48,101 nucleotides of DNA from a virus. Under the pieces are notes generated by a model. It saw only the letters and a program-made list of their open reading frames with translations. It ran no database searches and was not told the origin of the DNA. Shown here piece after piece: positions 28,983 to 37,194 of the stretch. The translations under genes were made by a program, and so were the position numbers. Every line of letters starts with the position of its first letter. The stretch's first letter is position 1. Location of the stretch: positions 1 through 48,101 of IMG/VR virus record IMGVR_UViG_3300020472_000004; one strand, given 5' to 3'.

Positions 28983-29207
28983 ATGGTTCGTAAAATCCTA
29001 GATGCCGCTGCATGTATCGGACTTATTCTTAGTGCTTCACTAGCTGGTGGTTCTTTCCTTTTATACCGGTATGTTTCTTCACCACAGTTTGAAGAGCAGG
29101 TGAAGGAGAAAATTATGGGGCAAGTCTCTAACGTTGTACCTAAATCAATCGAGAAAAGTCTTCCAAAAACAACAGGTATATCAATGCCAGCAATCCCTAA
29201 GCTATAA
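28983..29207 (+). CDS. Small membrane-anchored virion-type protein
   Basis: 74 residues. One membrane segment at about 8-28 (ACIGLILSASLAGGSFLLYRYV), then an amphipathic region (EEQVKEKIMGQVSNVVPKSI) and a Pro-rich end. Similar proteins accompany fibre genes in cyanophages. A holin role cannot be excluded. Preceded by a CTACCTAATTAAGTAAAA element. Confidence 0.55.
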   Translation: MVRKILDAAACIGLILSASLAGGSFLLYRYVSSPQFEEQVKEKIMGQVSNVVPKSIEKSLPKTTGISMPAIPKL

Positions 29208-29239: not shown

Positions 29240-29575
29240 ATGTCGATTACTCCCGGCCCATACAATATTGAGTTATACCGGCGAAGTGACTGGAGCCAAG
29301 AGGTTGTTTTAAAAGATTCAACAGGTACGGCAGTTAATCTCACTGGGTATACAACAGCTTGCGAATTTTGGACACAAGATCGAGCTAAGAAGCATTGTGA
29401 TGTCACCACGACTATTACAGATGCAACTAATGGCAAAGTAACTCTTAGCCTTACCGATACTCAAACAGCCACCCTACCTGATACCAGTTATTACGATTTG
29501 AAGCTTACGATTGGTTCTATTTCTGACTATTGGTTAACCGGTACCGTGACTGCTAAGGAAGGCTATACAACATGA
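29240..29575 (+). CDS. Baseplate/fibre N-terminal domain protein (BppU-like)
   Basis: 111 residues, beta-rich: PYNIELYRRSDWSQEVVLKDS, NLTGYTTACEFWTQ, GKVTLSLTDTQTATLP and DYWLTGTVTAKEG. This layout resembles Ig-like N-terminal domains of baseplate upper proteins (BppU-type) found as separate genes in cyanophages. Its stop overlaps the next start (ATGA), so it is expressed with the next small fibre protein. Start is preceded by ACCAAGTTAAGTAGGAG. Confidence 0.6.
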   Translation: MSITPGPYNIELYRRSDWSQEVVLKDSTGTAVNLTGYTTACEFWTQDRAKKHCDVTTTITDATNGKVTLSLTDTQTATLPDTSYYDLKLTIGSISDYWLTGTVTAKEGYTT

Positions 29576-29823
29576 CCAATACAGTTACCGTAAATGAGAC
29601 AAAAAATACGGTCTCAGTAAATGAAACTACGAATCAGGTAACGGTTACGCAGGGTGCTACTCAAATTGTTGATGTAGTTAGTCAGGGGCCGCAAGGTCCG
29701 TCAGGCATGGCGGCGGGAGGTTTGCCAACTGGGGGTGATCCCAACAATATTCTTATTAAATCCTCCTATTCAAACTATGACACCTCTTGGTCTTCCTCCT
29801 TAGATGGTGGAACTTTTAATTAA
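29572..29823 (+). CDS. Short fibre component with collagen-like stretch
   Basis: 83 residues: Thr/Val/Asn-rich repeats (VTVNETKNTVSVNETTNQVTV), then GPQGPSGM, a short collagen-like piece, and a final SLDGGTFN. The ending DGG-x-F recurs in two neighbouring genes, suggesting a docking tag for fibre assembly. Confidence 0.6.
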   Translation: MTNTVTVNETKNTVSVNETTNQVTVTQGATQIVDVVSQGPQGPSGMAAGGLPTGGDPNNILIKSSYSNYDTSWSSSLDGGTFN

Positions 29824-29844
29824 ACCCACTATTTCTTTTTAATC

Positions 29845-30300
29845 ATGGCACGTATTCAACTCAAAAGAGGAACAAAAAGCAATTTACCCTCTGCTTCAAT
29901 GTTGGCAGGTGAAGCGCATTTCACAACTGATCGAGGTTCTTTACATGTTGCTACAGGAGCGTCAACCTCTCTTCCTATTGTTCCTCCTGTTGAAGATTTA
30001 ACGACTCTTGCTTCTGTTGATGGCTCTAATGATCTTATTTTAATTCATGACAATTCAGAGTCGAGTGGACAGAAAGAGAAAAAGATAACCTTTGCGTCTT
30101 TCAAGACCGCCTTAAATATTCCAGCAGCATCGACTGATGAAAAGGTTTCAGTAGTAAATGGTGGAACTTCTGGTTATATCTGGGGTACGGATGGAACTGA
30201 CGGGATTCTTAGAATGAATTCATCAATGGCAATGACAAAAGATAGTGGTAATGCCTATGTGACTCTGGCGGTTGGTGATGTCGATTTGGGTACGTTCTAA
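29845..30300 (+). CDS. Fibre/receptor protein with Mtd-type N-terminus
   Basis: 151 residues. The start ARIQLKRGTKSNLP, then LAGEAHFTTDRGSLHVATG, is the short N-terminal domain of phage fibres and tropism-determinant-type proteins. A beta-rich body follows. The stop overlaps the next start (TAATG). No reverse transcriptase or variable repeat is present, so this is not a diversity-generating element. Confidence 0.65.
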   Translation: MARIQLKRGTKSNLPSASMLAGEAHFTTDRGSLHVATGASTSLPIVPPVEDLTTLASVDGSNDLILIHDNSESSGQKEKKITFASFKTALNIPAASTDEKVSVVNGGTSGYIWGTDGTDGILRMNSSMAMTKDSGNAYVTLAVGDVDLGTF

Positions 30301-30530
30301 TGCCAAGCCTCCGATTTAAACGAGGTACTTCAGACCCTAGTGCCTCAGATTTTTCTAATACTGCTGAATTATTAATTAATACGGCGGCGGGTACTCTATT
30401 CACCAAGAAGGATAATGGTTCAATACGTGAGATTGGTAGTAGTCCAATATTGGTTGATGGCGGTAATTTTGCAAATGGTTCATCTACAATTAGCACATCG
30501 AACACCTTTGATGGGGGCGACTTCACCTAA
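30300..30530 (+). CDS. Short fibre component, Mtd-type N-terminus and DGG-F end
   Basis: 76 residues: PSLRFKRGTSDPSASDF and a LLINTAAGTLFTKKDNG segment repeat the unit seen in the previous gene; the end has VDGGNF and FDGGDFT. It looks like a shortened sibling of the neighbouring fibre genes. Confidence 0.6.
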   Translation: MPSLRFKRGTSDPSASDFSNTAELLINTAAGTLFTKKDNGSIREIGSSPILVDGGNFANGSSTISTSNTFDGGDFT

Positions 30531-30532
30531 TC

Positions 30533-32089
30533 ATGCCTACACCAAGCACTAGAACACCAGTAAGAATTGCTAGAGGTTCTTATTCAGACTTAAATAGTAG
30601 TATTTCGGATCTACAAGAGGGAGAAATCGTCTATGCACAAGATCAAGACGCATGTTATGTCAAAGAAGGATCATCTCTAGTAAAAGTTAAAGGAGACGTT
30701 GCCGATGCGGCAGTTACGACAGCTAAGATAGCCGACGATGCAGTTACGACAGATAAACTAGCTAACTCTATTAATACAGAGATAGCAGCCAATACAGCTA
30801 AAACAACTAACGCCACTCATACCGGTGAGGTAACAGGTAGCGGAGCACTAACTATTGCTGATAATGCCGTCACTTTGGCTAAGATGGCAGGTCTTGCTAG
30901 AGGTAAAATTATCTATGGTGATGCCTCTGGAGATCCAGCCGCATTATCCCCAGGTAGTGCTAATCAAGTACTTACATCTGATGGGACTGATATATCTTGG
31001 GCCGCTGCTTCTGGTGGAGGACTTGGTTCTGATAGCGGAGAAAACACAGTTGGTGGTGAAGATTCCGGTGCTTCAATAAATGTAGGTGCCTATGGACTGA
31101 AGAATAGCTTTTATGGATTCGAGAGTGGTACTTCAGTCACTTCCGGCGCTGAAAACACCCTGATGGGCTGGAAAGTTGCAGATTCGATGACTACAGGCGG
31201 TGAGAATGTCATTCTCGGCAGTTTTGCAGGGGAGCGCATAACTGTTCGAGGGAAAAATACTATTGTGGGAACAAAAGCATACGAAGAAGCCACTGGTGAA
31301 CTTAATACCATTATGGGATATCACTCTACTAAAAATGGTGGTATGACCGTAGGAAATTGCGCCTTTGGCTATCGCAGTAACTATGAAACTTATGGAGATT
31401 ATAATTGTGCTTTTGGTTATGAAGCTCTTAAGGGTATAGGAAACGTTTATCTACATTATAATATTGGTATTGGGTATCAAGCTTTATACAAATCACAAGC
31501 TGAGCACAGCATAGGTATTGGTTATAAAGCATGTGGTCACGGAAGTGCTATGACCGGTACTCATAACACATGTCTAGGATACGAAACAGGTACTGCACTC
31601 ACTTCTGGCGGAGATAACTTAATATGCGGCCCTAGTGCAGGAGATGCTTTAACTACAGGATCAAATAACGTCATACTTGGTCATGATGCGGCGGCTAGCG
31701 CTGTTGACGTCTCTAATGAGATAACTTTAGGTGATAGCAATATTGCAACCTTACGTTGTCAAGTAACCAGTATTACTTCACTTTCCGATAGAAGAGATAA
31801 GACAGATATTAATACTTTAGATCTAGGATTAGACTTTATTGATTCTCTTAAACCAGTTCGCTTTAAATGGCAAACGAGAAATGGCCAAGGTCCAAAAGGT
31901 TATGAAGCAGGTTTTATTGCGCAAGATTTCCAACAAGTACAAAAAGATAATGACGCTGAATATCTTAATTTAGTTTTAGAGTCAAATCCTGAAAAATTGG
32001 AGGCTGCTCCAGGAAAACTTATTCCTATTCTTGTAAAAGCAATCCAAGAGCTTAAGATGGAGGTTGAAGCTTTAAAGAAAAATGGCTGA
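30533..32089 (+). CDS. Tail fibre with C-terminal endosialidase-type chaperone
   Basis: 518 residues. N-terminus RTPVRIARGSYSDLNSS then LQEGEIVYAQDQDACYVKEG is the same unit as in the previous two genes. The centre has repeats of Gly/Ser/Ala and TxG-type (TGGENVILGS, TSGGDNLICGP, TTGSNNVILGH), probably a beta-helical shaft. The last about 110 residues (LSDRRDKTDINTLDLGLDFI, KPVRFKW, GFIAQDFQQV) form an S74 chaperone domain. This is the second fibre in the window with such an end. Confidence 0.82.
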   Translation: MPTPSTRTPVRIARGSYSDLNSSISDLQEGEIVYAQDQDACYVKEGSSLVKVKGDVADAAVTTAKIADDAVTTDKLANSINTEIAANTAKTTNATHTGEVTGSGALTIADNAVTLAKMAGLARGKIIYGDASGDPAALSPGSANQVLTSDGTDISWAAASGGGLGSDSGENTVGGEDSGASINVGAYGLKNSFYGFESGTSVTSGAENTLMGWKVADSMTTGGENVILGSFAGERITVRGKNTIVGTKAYEEATGELNTIMGYHSTKNGGMTVGNCAFGYRSNYETYGDYNCAFGYEALKGIGNVYLHYNIGIGYQALYKSQAEHSIGIGYKACGHGSAMTGTHNTCLGYETGTALTSGGDNLICGPSAGDALTTGSNNVILGHDAAASAVDVSNEITLGDSNIATLRCQVTSITSLSDRRDKTDINTLDLGLDFIDSLKPVRFKWQTRNGQGPKGYEAGFIAQDFQQVQKDNDAEYLNLVLESNPEKLEAAPGKLIPILVKAIQELKMEVEALKKNG

Positions 32090-32333
32090 ACGTTCTACCG
32101 AAGAAGTCGCAAAAATCTTCATTAATGCTGAAGATAGTGTCACTCTTATTAATTCAATTGCAGCTCAATCAACAATTACTGATGAGGACAAGGCAACTTT
32201 AAAAAGGAATGTTGCACATCTAGAGATAATCAAGGCTTATAAGAAAGAAGATGAAACGACTTCTATCTGGACAACAGAGGATTTTACAACTAAGGATGCT
32301 GCTGCTGTGTTGGGTAAATCAAAGTATGAATGA
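32082..32333 (+). CDS. Small hypothetical accessory protein
   Basis: 83 residues, overlapping the fibre gene by eight bases and the next gene by four (ATGA). Helical: EEVAKIFINAEDSVTLINSIA, DKATLKRNVAHLEI, then a short strand region. Resembles small proteins near cyanophage fibre genes; function unknown. Confidence 0.55.
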   Translation: MAERSTEEVAKIFINAEDSVTLINSIAAQSTITDEDKATLKRNVAHLEIIKAYKKEDETTSIWTTEDFTTKDAAAVLGKSKYE

Positions 32334-32512
32334 TTGAAGAGTTTATAACTTTCAACGGATTTATATATAAAAAGGTAGGTGATGTAGGTTCAATTCTGAA
32401 AAGCTGTCCTCAATGTCATAATCAATTTTTCACTAAAGAACAGCGTAAGATTTATTGTTGTTGCGCTTGTAAAACGAGGGCACATAGAGAGCGACAAGAA
32501 TGCCCACAATAA
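32330..32512 (+). CDS. Small zinc-ribbon protein
   Basis: 60 residues. CPQC near residue 26 and CCCAC near residue 45, with the QRKIYC pattern typical of small zinc-ribbon proteins, and a basic tail. DNA or RNA binding is possible. It overlaps both neighbours, so it belongs to the fibre operon. Confidence 0.55.
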   Translation: MIEEFITFNGFIYKKVGDVGSILKSCPQCHNQFFTKEQRKIYCCCACKTRAHRERQECPQ

Positions 32513-33132
32513 AAATACCTGAGATTAAAATACCTACAATTGATATACCTGAGTCGCCTTTCTTTATAGGATATTCATTAACCGGTCTTGTTCCAGGGTG
32601 TCACCTGTATCACCGAGATTTAGAAGTTTCGCGTAACCCCTCATTACTTTGGGCTGATATAAACGGAGTCTCTAATTCATGTCCAGAGGGTCAAGTTCCT
32701 TCGTATGAACCCATGCGATATGACCCTCATCGAATGACTTATACAGAAACCACCGGTACTAAAACAAGTCAAAAACCAACAGATCGAAAACAGCTACCTA
32801 AGTCGTTACCTAGAAAGAAAGATGAAGAAGAAATTGATAAACCTTGTCCAGATCCAAATTCAAGTCTAAGAATTGGATCATTCGCCAATGAGAAGAGGCT
32901 AGAGCGCGTTTCCAAATTTGAAGTTATAAACGGTGACTGCTTACCAGTCTGGGAAAAAGTCACTTATGCCGAAACTTATTTTCCCTCGCCGGGTCAAGCG
33001 ATGTCTACAACGGCAACGGCTCTGCTCGCTGTATCGGCCCCACTAATATTGAATTTAATCAAACCGATTGTTAAAAACTTGATCAAGAAAATTACCGGGA
33101 AGAAGGAAGAGAAGAAGTCTCCTGAAACGTAG
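32500..33132 (+). CDS. Cyanophage-type IKIP-repeat protein with C-terminal membrane segment
   Basis: 210 residues. The N-terminus is a short repeat (IKIPEIKIPTIDIPES), then GCHLYHRDLEVSRNPSLLW, a Lys/Thr-rich linker, RIGSFANEKRLERV, and near the end ATALLAVSAPLILNLIKPIV, a possible membrane segment, with a basic tail. I recall the same order of segments in hypothetical proteins of marine T4-like cyanophages, often near exported proteins such as those encoded just downstream on the other strand. Its 3' end overlaps that cluster by 41 bases. Function unknown. Confidence 0.6.
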   Translation: MPTIKIPEIKIPTIDIPESPFFIGYSLTGLVPGCHLYHRDLEVSRNPSLLWADINGVSNSCPEGQVPSYEPMRYDPHRMTYTETTGTKTSQKPTDRKQLPKSLPRKKDEEEIDKPCPDPNSSLRIGSFANEKRLERVSKFEVINGDCLPVWEKVTYAETYFPSPGQAMSTTATALLAVSAPLILNLIKPIVKNLIKKITGKKEEKKSPET

Positions 33133-33874
33133 ATTCTAATTTGTGCTTATGGGGTATGACTTGGTTTGGTACAGATGTAATGACGACATTTTTGCAACTT
33201 ACAGCATCTTCTCCTACGAATTTAACTCCGAGTTTCATTTGCTCCGCACAGATTTTAAGTCTCGATAAATTGACCTCTAATTTCTTAGCCTTCAACATAA
33301 ACTCTTGAGTTTGACGATGTGTTCTAGCAGCAGCCAAGCACTCATCATTAAATTTTTTTCCTAGTGGGATTTGAAAACTAAGCGTCGCACCATAGTTGAG
33401 ATTAAAAGTTGTTTGATCTATTCGTTCTTGTTCAGCTACATAAAGTATGCGACCCGGATTAATTAAGTTACCATCATCATCTTCTTGGGTATCGTATATA
33501 TTTGTTCGACTCTTTGTGCTTCTTGGTAATGAAAAGTTCTCTCCTTGAGTAACAAAAGGTGTGAACGCTACTGTAGGTAATTGGCACTGAATCCCATTGC
33601 TATATCTATGAGTTGGGAAGTTTCCATTGATCGTCTGGTACCCATTATTTATAACTGTTCCGCTACTGGATGCACTAGGGCTACTAATAGTATTATTGGC
33701 TAAAACTGGATTGCTATATATTATTAAACTCAGTGCGAGAAGATGCTTAAACTGGTCTGCGTAGTTTCGGTATTTATAGTTCTCTGGACTGTTGAAACTG
33801 CGTCGAGGCCGGGAGCGAGGAAATTTTCGACGAGTGAAAAGGCATCGCCAGAACCGGGATTCGCTAATGTCCAT
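33092..33874 (-). CDS. Exported protein of the secreted cassette (largest member)
   Basis: Up to 260 residues from ATG 33874. A secretory signal (KHLLALSLIIYSNPVLA) is seen about 43-60 residues in, but no ATG, GTG or TTG lies directly before it. The upstream stretch overlaps the neighbouring gene in another frame. After the signal come Ser-rich residues, a GYQTINGNFPTHRYSNGIQC segment, NLNYGATLSFQIPLGK and a helical end rich in Lys with three cysteines (CLAAARTH, KICAEQMK, SCKNVVIT). I recall this order from exported hypothetical proteins in cyanomyoviruses. The start is unresolved. Confidence 0.55.
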   Translation of the reverse strand: MDISESRFWRCLFTRRKFPRSRPRRSFNSPENYKYRNYADQFKHLLALSLIIYSNPVLANNTISSPSASSSGTVINNGYQTINGNFPTHRYSNGIQCQLPTVAFTPFVTQGENFSLPRSTKSRTNIYDTQEDDDGNLINPGRILYVAEQERIDQTTFNLNYGATLSFQIPLGKKFNDECLAAARTHRQTQEFMLKAKKLEVNLSRLKICAEQMKLGVKFVGEDAVSCKNVVITSVPNQVIPHKHKLESTFQETSSLPSSR

Positions 33875-34164
33875 TGAGGTTTGTTGTCGATGTCTGGTGT
33901 TACCCATCTAAATGAAACACCTCCGGCAGATTGTGATTCTGTATAGATAGCGTCGGGAGATATGGATTGCCCAGTCACAAGTTTGATTCCAGACCCCTGC
34001 GCCTGATAAGAATAGCCACTGCGGAAATTCTGAGTCACCACCGTCTCGACTATCGTTTGAACACTGCGAGACGAACTTTCCATCTGGCCTGTTGTGAAGC
34101 GCGGAGTAATACTTCCAGCCCTGACAGGTGAGATAATAAAAAATAAGAACAACCATTTCATCAT
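33730..34164 (-). CDS. Exported protein of the secreted cassette
   Basis: 144 residues with a signal peptide at 1-17 (WLFLFFIISPVRAG). Then ITPRFTTGQMESSSRSVQTI, YSYQAQGSGIKLV, RWVTPDI and FSLVENFLAPGLDAV; mostly beta. The pattern is one I associate with secreted virion or membrane-associated proteins of cyanophages. Its start overlaps the previous gene (ATGA). It overlaps the next gene's reading by over 140 bases if that one starts at 33874. Confidence 0.65.
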   Translation of the reverse strand: MMKWLFLFFIISPVRAGSITPRFTTGQMESSSRSVQTIVETVVTQNFRSGYSYQAQGSGIKLVTGQSISPDAIYTESQSAGGVSFRWVTPDIDNKPQWTLANPGSGDAFSLVENFLAPGLDAVSTVQRTINTETTQTSLSIFSH

Positions 34165-34256
34165 CTGTGTATATCTATGTAGTGCTTATACATTAAAAAG
34201 CTTGCGATGCAGTAGATAACTATGGCTATGAAGCAGACAATTATTGGGATATGCAC
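34161..34256 (-). CDS. 31-residue single-span membrane peptide
   Basis: GTG 34256 overlaps the previous stop by one base and the stop overlaps the next start. The peptide is one hydrophobic span (IPIIVCFIAIVIYCIASFLMY) with a basic tail. Overlap on both sides within an operon of exported proteins supports that it is translated, despite the size. Confidence 0.5.
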   Translation of the reverse strand: MHIPIIVCFIAIVIYCIASFLMYKHYIDIHR

Positions 34257-34783
34257 TAGTCGATCTCCAAAGATATTGTGCTTTGCATCGTTGCTGTTGT
34301 ACCTGCTCCCATATCTGTTAGAGATACAGTCATCGCTTGATCAGAAGCAAGAGTCATGGTGACAGAGCCGGGATCTCCACCAGATACGGAGACAACACTT
34401 GAGAAAATTGGAAGCGCAGGTATAACCCCGTCAGTCACCGTCCCTGAAAGTAGAGATGGTTGAGCATCACCCTCTAAATAAGTTTCTTGCACAGACCATG
34501 AATCCCCTGCTGTAGTAACGCCAAAAGTCGTGTCATGGTCTACGGTTGGGATTCCATTTGTTATTCCTGCGTCAGCTAAATCTAAACTACCTATTGCATT
34601 AGCTACTGAGTTTGATGTCGGTGTGACATTAGATCCTTGCAAACTTACTGTTGTCCCAATCCGATTACTTGTTGTACTTGCACCGACCGTACTCACCGAA
34701 ACAACTGACTGCATGGTGTGAGTGATGTCGGCTCTCGAAGGAGAAAGGATAAATACCAGTGGGAGGAGAAGTAAGTGTTTCAT
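34256..34783 (-). CDS. Exported beta-rich protein of the secreted cassette
   Basis: 175 residues with a clear signal peptide (KHLLLLPLVFILSPSRAD). The mature part is Ser/Thr/Val-rich: ITHTMQSVVSVSTVGAST, RIGTTVSLQGSNVT, FGVTTAGDSWSVQETYLEGD and a beta-rich end. I recall the ITHT-QSSV and RIGT/S-x-x-S pattern from cyanomyovirus hypothetical proteins. It may be displayed on the virion or in the periplasm. Overlaps its neighbours by four bases and one base. Confidence 0.65.
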   Translation of the reverse strand: MKHLLLLPLVFILSPSRADITHTMQSVVSVSTVGASTTSNRIGTTVSLQGSNVTPTSNSVANAIGSLDLADAGITNGIPTVDHDTTFGVTTAGDSWSVQETYLEGDAQPSLLSGTVTDGVIPALPIFSSVVSVSGGDPGSVTMTLASDQAMTVSLTDMGAGTTATMQSTISLEID

Positions 34784-34998
34784 AAATAAGCTTTACTGAT
34801 TTGGGCTAATAAACCTAATAATGCCAAACCTGCACTAACAACTGCGGCAGCTTGGAATACTCTTTTCTCTAATTGTCTTACTCGGTCTTCTAAATCTCCT
34901 ATTTTCTCCTCTGCTCTTTTCAATTTCATTTCGGTGCAGACAATTCTAGTTTCCTGCCGAGCATCGATAGAAAGATCACCTGAAAAATCACCAGTCAT
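34780..34998 (-). CDS. Coiled-coil membrane protein (holin/spanin-like candidate)
   Basis: 72 residues: a charged helix that can form a coiled coil (KLKRAEEKIGDLEDRVRQLEKR) and a C-terminal membrane segment (AAAVVSAGLALLGLLAQI). Similar small proteins occur next to exported proteins in cyanophages. As the genome shows no known lysis gene, this and its upstream neighbour are the best candidates for a holin-type role, but this is inferred from shape only. Confidence 0.6.
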   Translation of the reverse strand: MTGDFSGDLSIDARQETRIVCTEMKLKRAEEKIGDLEDRVRQLEKRVFQAAAVVSAGLALLGLLAQISKAYL

Positions 34999-35306
34999 TT
35001 GATCAACCTCCCATCTGGCCCAATGTTTTTACCGGTTATAGGATCTTTGCGAGGTTTGTTGCTGTCTTTGGGTTTAGCGTTACCCGGTTTCTTTACAGCT
35101 ATGTTGAAATTTCCAAGAACCGAAGATAGGAGACCGGCTGCAAACGTCGTGTCAATTTGCTTAACCGTATTTCCAAAGTAACTCATGCTTATTACTCCCA
35201 AAGACCACGTTAATACGATTAGTTGAACAAGAGTACCTACTTTCGACGGTCTTTCTTCGTCTTCTTTTTCTTCTTTTTCTTCAGGTAATTCTTGGTAGTC
35301 ATCCAT
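34995..35306 (-). CDS. Membrane protein with acidic head and basic tail (holin-like candidate)
   Basis: 103 residues from ATG 35306 (TTG 35309 is one codon further). An acidic N-terminus (ELPEEKEEKEDEERP), a membrane segment (LVQLIVLTWSLGVISMSYF), a second weaker hydrophobic stretch (FAAGLLSSVLGNF) and a Lys/Pro-rich tail. Two spans and a charged tail fit class II holins; other roles are possible. The stop overlaps the next gene (ATGA). Confidence 0.6.
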   Translation of the reverse strand: MDDYQELPEEKEEKEDEERPSKVGTLVQLIVLTWSLGVISMSYFGNTVKQIDTTFAAGLLSSVLGNFNIAVKKPGNAKPKDSNKPRKDPITGKNIGPDGRLIK

Positions 35307-35356
35307 CAAGTAGGTAAGTCATTACCTAGATCCTAGCAAAGGGCAACTGGGTTGGA

Positions 35357-35500
35357 TTATGACTCGTCTGTAGTTTTCCTATGAACCTGTTTTTTATGGA
35401 AGTCGTGTTCGTCGGTTAACTGCAAGAGAATGTCCTTGCACTTTTCTTGAAACTTCTCGTCTTCACTCTTAGTCTTCTTTTCCTTGTCTGAGTCCATCAT
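35357..35500 (-). CDS. 47-residue charged peptide
   Basis: Starts at ATG 35500 (a second ATG directly follows) and overlaps the 3' end of the previous gene. The product is very charged (MMDSDKEKKTKSEDEK, then an ILLQLTDEHD helix). It lies first before the exported-protein block. No family is recognised; the overlap supports translation. Confidence 0.45.
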   Translation of the reverse strand: MMDSDKEKKTKSEDEKFQEKCKDILLQLTDEHDFHKKQVHRKTTDES

Positions 35501-35714
35501 CAGATAGTTGAGATTTGCTGAGATTAAGCGCAGCTTTTATGTGATATAGGATTTTATCTGTTTTTTCTTTAGCTTCTAGAGTTGGAGTGAAATTGTCAGA
35601 CAGTTGGTCAAGATCTTCTTTTAAAAATTCGAGATCAGAAATACTGTGTTCAATATTGTCAATATAAAGTTCTCCTTCTTTTGTTGAAGAGTCAGTAACA
35701 AATGATGCACTCAT
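35469..35714 (-). CDS. Small helical acidic protein
   Basis: 81 residues from ATG 35714; ATG 35744 would add ten residues. Acidic helices (NIEHSISDLEFLKEDLDQL, AKEKTDKILYHIKAALNL) with a charged C-terminus. First gene of the minus-strand block, divergent from the serine recombinase; the dyad at 35774-35821 lies between them. Could be a regulator or an excision-related protein, but no domain supports this. Confidence 0.55.
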   Translation of the reverse strand: MSASFVTDSSTKEGELYIDNIEHSISDLEFLKEDLDQLSDNFTPTLEAKEKTDKILYHIKAALNLSKSQLSDDGLRQGKED

Positions 35715-35773
35715 GCTGTTTTTACGATTGTATGAAAGGCACATACATAAGTACTTGGTTCCTTTTTGCTCTT

Positions 35774-35877: not shown

Positions 35878-37194
35878 ATGTCAAACAAGACTTTCCCTGA
35901 TGTAGTCGGGTATGCGAGAGTCAGCACAGAACAAAATGAGCAACTTTCAGCTCTCGAAACACAAAAGAGCAGACTTAAAGCAGCGGGTGTTGAGAAAATT
36001 TATACCGACGTTGAAAGCGGTAGATCTAATGAAAGAGAGGCTTTTAACGAATTACTTCAGTTAATTGATAAAAAAAGAGTTAGAGAAATAGTTGTTACTA
36101 GATATGACCGGTTGGGTAGAAACGCCGCTTTTGTTGATGCTGCGCTGGTTTTAGCGTCAAAAAAGAGCGTCGTAATTAGAACAATTGATACAGGTGTTGT
36201 TGACACAGATACACCACAGGGATTCTTAATGTCTCGCATTTCTACAAGTCTTGCTGAGATGGAATCCAAAATGTTGAGCCTAAGAGTTAAGAAAGCTTTT
36301 GAGCAAAAGTGGAAAGACGGGAAGATACCGAGAGGAAAGATACCTTGGGGTTATCACAGAGTTAAATATGTTGATAATGATCGTTTAGAACTCCATCCAA
36401 CTGAGGGAGATAAAGCAAGACAGTTTTTAGCTTTATTGAGGCAGAATGGATATAGGTTTTCTAAGGCAATAATTGAATCTAAAGATGTCCCTTTACGCAA
36501 AACATCTAGTGTTAAAAAGTGGCTATGTAACCCTATTTTGAGAGGTGGTATAGGTTTTGAGAGAGTCAAAGATTACCAGTACAAGAAAGTTATTTGGGAA
36601 TTGCATGAACCGTTAATTAGACATGAAGACTGGTTCGCGATTCAACGAATTATGGAGTTTAATAGGAATACATGGGGGGCAAGTTCGAAAGTGCAACCAA
36701 AACTTCTTACTGGTCTTGCTATTTGTTCTGGCTGTACTAATCGTTTGGCCTACTTACCTCGTAAGAAGGAAACACATGCTTTTGCCTTAAGATGCAATAC
36801 TCTTAAATGCGATTTTTATAATAAGAGAGTAAAGGCTTCAATGATGGTAGAAGCTATCAATAAAGCGTTAGCTAAACGGGCAAAGGAATTAGCCAACAGA
36901 ACTGAGGAAGAACCCGTGGAAGTAATGAAGCTTCGGAGTGAAGTTGACTTACTCATTAAGATGAATGATCCAGACTTAGAGGAAGCGATTAAGAAAAAGC
37001 AGGAAAAGATAACAGGTTTACTTCTAACTGATTCCCCTATCTTGAAAGAACGAGCGCAGATACTGGGGGCGCCCGGTTTTTGGAAACATGCCGAGTCTCT
37101 TCCAGACAATCGCCTTCGGGAGATTTATCTAGAGTTTGTTCTGAAAGTGACAGCGAATCCGACTGAGGTAGTTGGAGTGGATCTAAGGATTTAG
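35878..37194 (+). CDS. Large serine recombinase (integrase/resolvase family)
   Basis: 438 residues. Catalytic domain: GYARVSTEQN with Ser16 as the likely nucleophile, VTRYDRLGRN at about 73-82, and the long E-helix (SRISTSLAEMESKMLSLRVKKAF). Recombinase domain after about 145 (GKIPWGYHRV, then WLCNPILRGGIGFERV). A zinc ribbon has CSGC at about 283 and LRCNTLKC, then a coiled-coil stretch. It would catalyse site-specific recombination at an attachment site, so integration or excision. Comparable cyanobacterial enzymes are the XisF-type excisionases. Its presence suggests a temperate or once-temperate phage. Confidence 0.9.
   Translation: MSNKTFPDVVGYARVSTEQNEQLSALETQKSRLKAAGVEKIYTDVESGRSNEREAFNELLQLIDKKRVREIVVTRYDRLGRNAAFVDAALVLASKKSVVIRTIDTGVVDTDTPQGFLMSRISTSLAEMESKMLSLRVKKAFEQKWKDGKIPRGKIPWGYHRVKYVDNDRLELHPTEGDKARQFLALLRQNGYRFSKAIIESKDVPLRKTSSVKKWLCNPILRGGIGFERVKDYQYKKVIWELHEPLIRHEDWFAIQRIMEFNRNTWGASSKVQPKLLTGLAICSGCTNRLAYLPRKKETHAFALRCNTLKCDFYNKRVKASMMVEAINKALAKRAKELANRTEEEPVEVMKLRSEVDLLIKMNDPDLEEAIKKKQEKITGLLLTDSPILKERAQILGAPGFWKHAESLPDNRLREIYLEFVLKVTANPTEVVGVDLRI

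Follow-up and report, generated by a model that had tools for sequence, protein, structure and literature searches.

What does a packed group of minus-strand genes, predicted to encode exported and membrane proteins, do for the phage that carries it? The question is raised by the region between the fibre genes and a serine recombinase in IMG/VR record IMGVR_UViG_3300020472_000004. Its 48,101 bases, hereafter the window, constitute a siphovirus-like phage record that encodes, according to profile scans, a terminase, a portal, a tape measure, tail proteins, a family A DNA polymerase and the recombinase. Lysis of Prochlorococcus and Synechococcus by viruses accounts for a large flux in the marine carbon cycle. 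For most phages of these two genera the lysis genes are unidentified, and a survey of spanins left these phages as an open case (PMC6139136). An earlier note on the window had proposed that eight genes of the region form a mobile module that is carried by different phage types and acts in the host envelope. The results presented here indicate that a smaller core of this cassette is conserved across phage types, that it and recognisable endolysins nearly exclude each other, and that one of its genes probably starts inside another. We favour, with a probability of about 45%, the reading that the core replaces the usual endolysin system in host lysis.

All eight minus-strand open reading frames (ORFs) were present where the earlier note had placed them. 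Its exported proteins and the facing plus-strand gene, which it had likened to hypothetical proteins of cyanomyoviruses, matched known but uncharacterised families (phrog_848/1755, DUF6322/phrog_650, phrog_564 and phrog_570), and a fourth minus-strand protein fell in another family of this sort, DUF6450/phrog_721. By tblastn, 394 phage records contained phrog_848 and 398 contained DUF6322, every one of them bearing the name of a Synechococcus, Prochlorococcus, cyanophage, marine or uncultured phage; homologues of phrog_570, DUF6450 and phrog_564 occurred in 74, 43 and 30 phage records, respectively, the last at an E value of 0.01, and phrog_564 was found in 80 related loci. Profile mapping of the fetched loci (numbered with an L below) gave the order 721 > 564 > DUF6322 > 848 > < 570 < 568. 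The core is a compact minus-strand operon, DUF6450 (phrog_721) > phrog_564 > DUF6322 > phrog_848, facing phrog_570, which was convergent in 76 of the 90 loci with sufficient flank, while phrog_564 lay upstream in 68 out of 75. This gene order recurred in siphovirus-like, T4-like, S-TIM5-type and T7-like marine cyanophages, among them MED4-184, S-RSM4, Syn30, S-RIM2 and S-TIM5. P-SSM4 also presented the arrangement, but with phrog_570 on the same strand; the T7-like NATL1A-7 and P-SSP7 carried all the cassette genes on one strand, and in cyanomyoviruses phrog_721 was on the opposite arm and the cassette adjoined hsp20 and replication genes. The cassette is real and conserved across phage types, which bears out the idea of a shared, envelope-directed module. 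We looked for both outcomes that the earlier note had named beforehand as counting against it: homologues in the same order do occur in other phages, and no known lysis or tail system gave a strong match. Its claim that all eight genes belong to the shared module was not upheld. The conserved module is smaller, because a 72-amino-acid (aa) protein had no homologue in the related loci, two upstream ORFs were confined to the two relatives closest to the window, and a 31-aa protein was kept mainly in close relatives. A host origin of the cassette was discarded: a contig scan gave eight matches (two Prochlorococcus single-cell assemblies and six unrelated), several of which showed the phage gene order and were read as phage contigs.

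The distribution of the cassette was then compared with that of endolysins, using five families (phrog_181, PF00959, PF01510, PF08291 and PF01832) in 21 records. Matches appeared in the cassette-negative P60, S-PM2, S-CBS2, P-SS2 and S-CBS4, and in one of the 15 cassette-positive phages, S-RIM2. Once seven further phages were added, an endolysin was present in 12 out of 13 cassette-negative phages, seven of which had been chosen for having one. Fisher tests gave p = 0.0017 for the 21-record table, with S-RIM2 counted as endolysin-positive, and 8e-6 with the seven phages chosen for their endolysin, both values being uncorrected for lineage relatedness. None of phrog_848, DUF6322 or phrog_570 was found in these seven; the phrog_848 and DUF6322 searches gave zero matches, with separate earlier searches as positive controls, and the phrog_570 search carried its own positives but missed P-SSP7, whose phrog_570 consists of the C-terminal part alone. 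S-H34, an endolysin carrier, presented a marginal DUF6450-like match (E value 0.01). The exclusion recurred within T4-like, T7-like and siphovirus-like phages, and cassette-positive and endolysin-positive phages both infect Synechococcus WH7803, so the host strain does not explain the split. In the T7-like phages of the P-SSP7 type the cassette occupied the slot between the tail fibre and the terminase, where P60 and S-CBP42 carried their endolysin. The cassette is almost never accompanied by a recognisable endolysin, a relation that is new here; an absolute exclusion was dropped because of S-RIM2. As a separate observation, the cassette-negative S-PM2 (L126 1787-3301) encodes a phage lysozyme followed, about 0.7 kb downstream, by an annotated lipoprotein precursor, which could be an outer-membrane lysis partner.

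A second feature of the cassette is the way in which phrog_848 begins. In the window, this gene overlaps DUF6322 by 178 nucleotides (nt) in the -1 frame, and about 55 residues of the ORF precede its signal-peptide core, which has no closer ATG, GTG or TTG. The protein presents an N-terminal extension of about 54 aa, then the signal-peptide core and a mature domain with four cysteines that are invariant in the alignment columns. No start codon of these three types adjoined the core in the window, S-RIM2, S-RSM4, Syn30, S-TIM5 or the T7-like relatives. The phrog_848 gene was in the -1 frame of DUF6322 in 101 out of 103 pairs, and this frame remained open over a median stretch of 189 nt before the DUF6322 stop, compared to about 48 nt expected under synonymous codon replacement (p < 0.05 in 88 of 93 sequences, calculated per sequence on related sequences). 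The start codon that comes first in the -1 frame (ATG in 84, TTG in 6 and GTG in 3) overlapped a tryptophan codon of DUF6322 in every one of the 93 pairs tested. Such a codon always yields NTG in the -1 frame; the features that are kept are the tryptophan position, the preceding A and the open frame after it. This start lay a median of 5 codons past the upstream stop and 56 codons ahead of the DUF6322 stop. Shine-Dalgarno-like motifs of at least 4 nt preceded 36 of the 93 starts, against a background of about 12%, and the window presents one of them (Table 1). We rejected the idea that purifying selection acts on the amino acids encoded in the overlap, since four-fold degenerate sites varied alike within it (0.264) and upstream (0.267); the frame is therefore kept open while the encoded extension is only loosely constrained. 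A programmed -1 frameshift as the source of phrog_848 was also disfavoured, as canonical slippery heptamers occurred in 22 of 93 sequences and the open frame began a median of 5 codons before the start. Altogether, we propose that phrog_848 is translated from a start codon within DUF6322, not previously described, so that both genes would form one overlapped unit. This overlap would account for public records in which phrog_848 is missing or wrongly started: no gene is called at this place in S-RSM4, and the calls of P-SSM4, S-TIM5 and P-SSP7 begin within or downstream of the signal peptide. Two exceptions were found. P-SCSP1k phrog_848 has its own ATG, in the +1 frame, and in MED4-184 (L002 4900-5000) the frame is broken by one base at a run of seven Ts; metagenomic relatives of MED4-184 (L045, L046, L049 and L065) keep the -1 frame intact.

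Hydropathy and structure prediction provided further information on the encoded proteins. DUF6450 presented two hydrophobic segments in its members from the window, S-RIM2, P-SSP7 and NATL1A-7, and a single segment above threshold in P-SSM4, MED4-184 and P-SCSP1k. The AlphaFold model of DUF6322 consisted of a small beta head with a strand of 22-23 residues on either side (mean predicted local distance difference test, pLDDT, 81; predicted template modelling score, pTM, 0.45), and that of phrog_848 of a long hairpin and a 41-residue helix (pLDDT 64, pTM 0.27). Foldseek returned nothing at an E value of 0.001 against the PDB and uncharacterised, mainly cyanophage proteins from a viral library; matches to beta-hairpin pore proteins were discounted, since any long hairpin draws them. 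The PDB sequence search gave nothing useful, and inspection of the N-termini of phrog_564, DUF6322 and phrog_848 revealed no lipobox. No papers naming DUF6322 were found, nor any gene-specific expression timing in the main text of the literature.

The earlier note had left the function between lysis, superinfection exclusion and virion display; we favour the first, and the other two found no positive support here. The four core families, together with the facing phrog_570 and phrog_568, may constitute a host-envelope lysis module of marine picocyanophages that replaces the usual endolysin system. DUF6450, with its two hydrophobic segments, would act as a holin-like inner-membrane protein, and phrog_570 and phrog_568 would provide additional inner-membrane parts. 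The products of phrog_564, DUF6322 and phrog_848 would be exported and would break open the outer envelope, perhaps assembled into a beta-structured oligomer, while the peptidoglycan could be breached by a new hydrolase of the cassette, by a block of wall synthesis or by a lysin encoded elsewhere. Lysis is favoured because of the near mutual exclusion with endolysins and the slot position in T7-like phages. We also counted in its favour that the window ORFs scanned gave no match to a lysis family, that the proteins carry signal peptides and membrane segments, that the phrog_848 start is overlapped, and that many of these marine cyanophages are listed as spanin-less, including the cassette carriers P-SSP7, P-SSM2, P-SSM4, S-RSM4 and Syn9 (PMC6139136).

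Several points weigh against this assignment. The cassette-negative P60, S-PM2, PSS2, S-CBS4 and Syn5 are listed as spanin-less too (PMC6139136), and therefore being spanin-less does not in itself follow the cassette. In S-RIM2, a tail-region protein of about 844 aa, encoded among other large genes, contains glucosaminidase and M15 domains; since S-CREM2 proteomics shows that large tail-region proteins with endolysin domains can belong to the virion (PMC10665884), this protein may do so as well. Syn5 had neither cassette nor endolysin by these searches, which covered five families and missed the P-SS2 enzyme until the fifth was added, and related phages are not independent data. The Pfam and PHROGs scans recognised no muralytic domain in the cassette proteins. 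In addition, S-TIP37 tolerates a marker between g45 and g46 (PMC8776855); this gap contains a DUF6450-like stretch, in a gene that already looks degenerate and has no normal N-terminus. If the lysis reading were true, one small cassette would be a candidate exit route common to T4-like, T7-like and siphovirus-like cyanophages. Only tentatively do we extend it to the proposal that most phages of Prochlorococcus and Synechococcus, across three unrelated tail types, lyse their hosts with one common module that needs no endolysin. This module would combine exported beta-structured proteins with a holin-like membrane protein, would have moved between phage types as a cassette and would have one part produced from an overlooked internal start.

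Could the cassette instead perform the outer-membrane step only, as a counterpart of spanins, with an unrecognised endolysin elsewhere in the cassette-positive phages? We regard this as unlikely, although not far-fetched: the exported proteins and the overlapped gene pair are reminiscent of overlapped spanins (PMC6139136), the cassette phages have no known spanins, the endolysin search was confined to its five families and S-RIM2 has muralytic domains elsewhere. However, a spanin-like role alone would not predict the endolysin exclusion observed in three phage groups, the three exported proteins have no lipobox, and the endolysin-positive P60 and S-PM2 are also spanin-less. Neither that exclusion nor the lysis-like slot in T7-like phages is predicted by envelope remodelling or superinfection exclusion, in which the exported proteins would cover or modify the outer membrane of the infected host and prevent other phages from adsorbing or delivering their DNA. 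It would also be unusual for an exclusion gene to occur in the majority of cyanophages of several groups, and we find this explanation rather improbable in spite of the signal peptides, the beta-rich predicted folds and an accessory-like mobility between phage types (PMC3037559). Virion or virion-assembly proteins, for instance fibre or decoration proteins passing through the periplasm, are very improbable, for the nearby tail-fibre genes of the window and of T7-like phages, the long beta strands of the DUF6322 model and a weak Foldseek match to a phage tail protein are set against signal peptides unusual for cytoplasm-assembled virion proteins, S-TIM5 neighbours annotated as virion structural while the cassette genes are not (annotation only), and the vicinity of hsp20 and replication genes in cyanomyoviruses.

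Table 1. Features of the cassette region and its surroundings in the window
Feature	Coordinates	Strand	Evidence or remark
DUF6450 / phrog_721 protein	34995..35306	-	Pfam PF20048 1.6e-8; phrog_721 2.9e-11; phrog_21865 5.4e-13
72-aa protein, coiled coil and C-terminal membrane segment	34780..34998	-	hydropathy
phrog_564 protein, signal peptide, beta-rich	34256..34783	-	phrog_564 1.9e-21
31-aa protein, single membrane segment, GTG start	34161..34256	-	hydropathy
DUF6322 / phrog_650 protein, signal peptide	33730..34164	-	PF19847 8.5e-20; phrog_650 1.6e-28
phrog_848/1755 protein	33092..33907	-	phrog_848 3.5e-57
DUF6322/phrog_848 overlap, -1 frame	33730..33907	-	ATG 33907-33905 overlaps DUF6322 tryptophan codon
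Shine-Dalgarno-like GGAGGT	33924-33919		precedes phrog_848 ATG
phrog_848 signal-peptide core HLLALSLIIYSNPVLA	33698..33745	-	straddles DUF6322 stop codon
phrog_570 protein, convergent, C-terminal membrane segment and basic tail	32500..33132	+	phrog_570 1.3e-26
phrog_568 ('plasmid stability') protein, one membrane segment, displaced module member	28983..29207	+	phrog_568 2.1e-7
Fibre genes	29240-32333
Small soluble ORF, upstream, lineage-specific	35357..35500	-	found in L008 and L011 only
Small soluble ORF, upstream, lineage-specific	35469..35744	-	found in L008 and L011 only
Large serine recombinase	35878-37194

The remaining features of the region were particular to the window and its close relatives (Table 1). 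The earlier note had described six genes joined by overlaps of 1-4 bases; this applied to five of them (DUF6450/72-aa protein, 4 nt; 72-aa protein/phrog_564, 4 nt; phrog_564/31-aa protein, 1 nt; 31-aa protein/DUF6322, 4 nt), the sixth, phrog_848, having the 178-nt overlap. The DUF6450 start was taken as the ATG at 35306, one codon past the TTG of the ORF list. The two upstream ORFs overlap each other by 32 nt, and the 3′ ends of phrog_570 and phrog_848 by 41 nt. Hydropathy agreed with the membrane segments assigned to DUF6450 (two), the 72-aa protein and the 31-aa protein; as for the three signal peptides, N-terminal hydrophobic segments were present in phrog_564 and DUF6322, and in phrog_848 the segment is internal to the ORF, as described above. 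Homologues of the 72-aa protein were absent from about 110 related loci, including the nearest ones, where DUF6450 abuts phrog_564, and the gene appears to be a private insertion of the window phage between these two. Its comparison with XhlA (PF10779) gave 12.9 bits for a curated cut-off of 34.7, and the XhlA and coiled-coil matches were sub-threshold. The 31-aa protein was kept mainly in L008, L009, L011 and L023, at 61-97% identity, and the module membership of the two upstream ORFs is doubtful. In the closest relatives (L008-L010) phrog_568 abuts phrog_570; in the window 3.3 kb of fibre genes separate them, which look like an insertion into the facing arm of the module. The recombinase adjoining the cassette, present among the fetched loci only in L008, L009 and L011, suggests an integrating lineage. 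A nucleotide search of the window against phages gave no match. Two observations concern other loci. In S-TIP37 (L024 6584-7145), phrog_570 is split by a frameshift and the DUF6450-like stretch, which has no N-terminal part, is unannotated. A 52-56-aa protein with a KPI-type hydrophobic start recurs in phages with the cassette as well as in phages without it, located close to the cassette or to the small terminase (L004 6899-7057, L025 4763-4927, L002 3564-3728 and L109 3666-3836; phrog_2738/402 in Syn5).

Finally, we compared the cassette with known systems. It shares the tail-fibre-to-terminase slot with the endolysin loci of P60 and S-CBP42; these loci and that of S-PM2 differ in having recognisable endolysins (phrog_181, PF00959) and no cassette. 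Class II holins such as T7 gp17.5 are small proteins with two membrane segments and an N-in, C-in topology. DUF6450 is small too, with a basic C-terminal tail and, in the window and three of the other members analysed, two hydrophobic segments, and it follows the tail fibres in T7-like cyanophages, but it showed no sequence match to a holin family. The resemblance to two-component spanins (lambda Rz/Rz1 class; PMC6139136) lies in two envelope-directed proteins encoded in overlapping frames, the second gene extending past the first; in contrast, the cassette pair has no lipobox, no pairing of a type II i-spanin with a lipoprotein and no sequence match, and both partners carry cleavable-type signal peptides. 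The closest precedent is the cluster of hypothetical genes (T4-GCs 218, 219, 234, 235 and 237) that Sullivan et al. (2010) reported in all studied cyanomyoviruses except S-PM2, with a suggestion of mobility (PMC3037559). Both cassettes are clustered and variable in position and share phrog_570 (T4-GC 234) and the DUF6450 family (T4-GC 218), as well as the 'plasmid stability' protein phrog_568 (T4-GC 414), displaced by 3.3 kb in the window. They differ in that T4-GC 219 (phrog_605, identified in S-RIM2) was not among the matches of the window ORFs scanned and in that the window DUF6450 is on the other arm. The cassette of myoviruses was therefore already known as a probable mobile one and is less new than the earlier note took it to be; the order shared across phage types is an extension of that report. 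New with respect to it are the siphovirus-like and T7-like phages, the overlapped start and the relation to endolysins.

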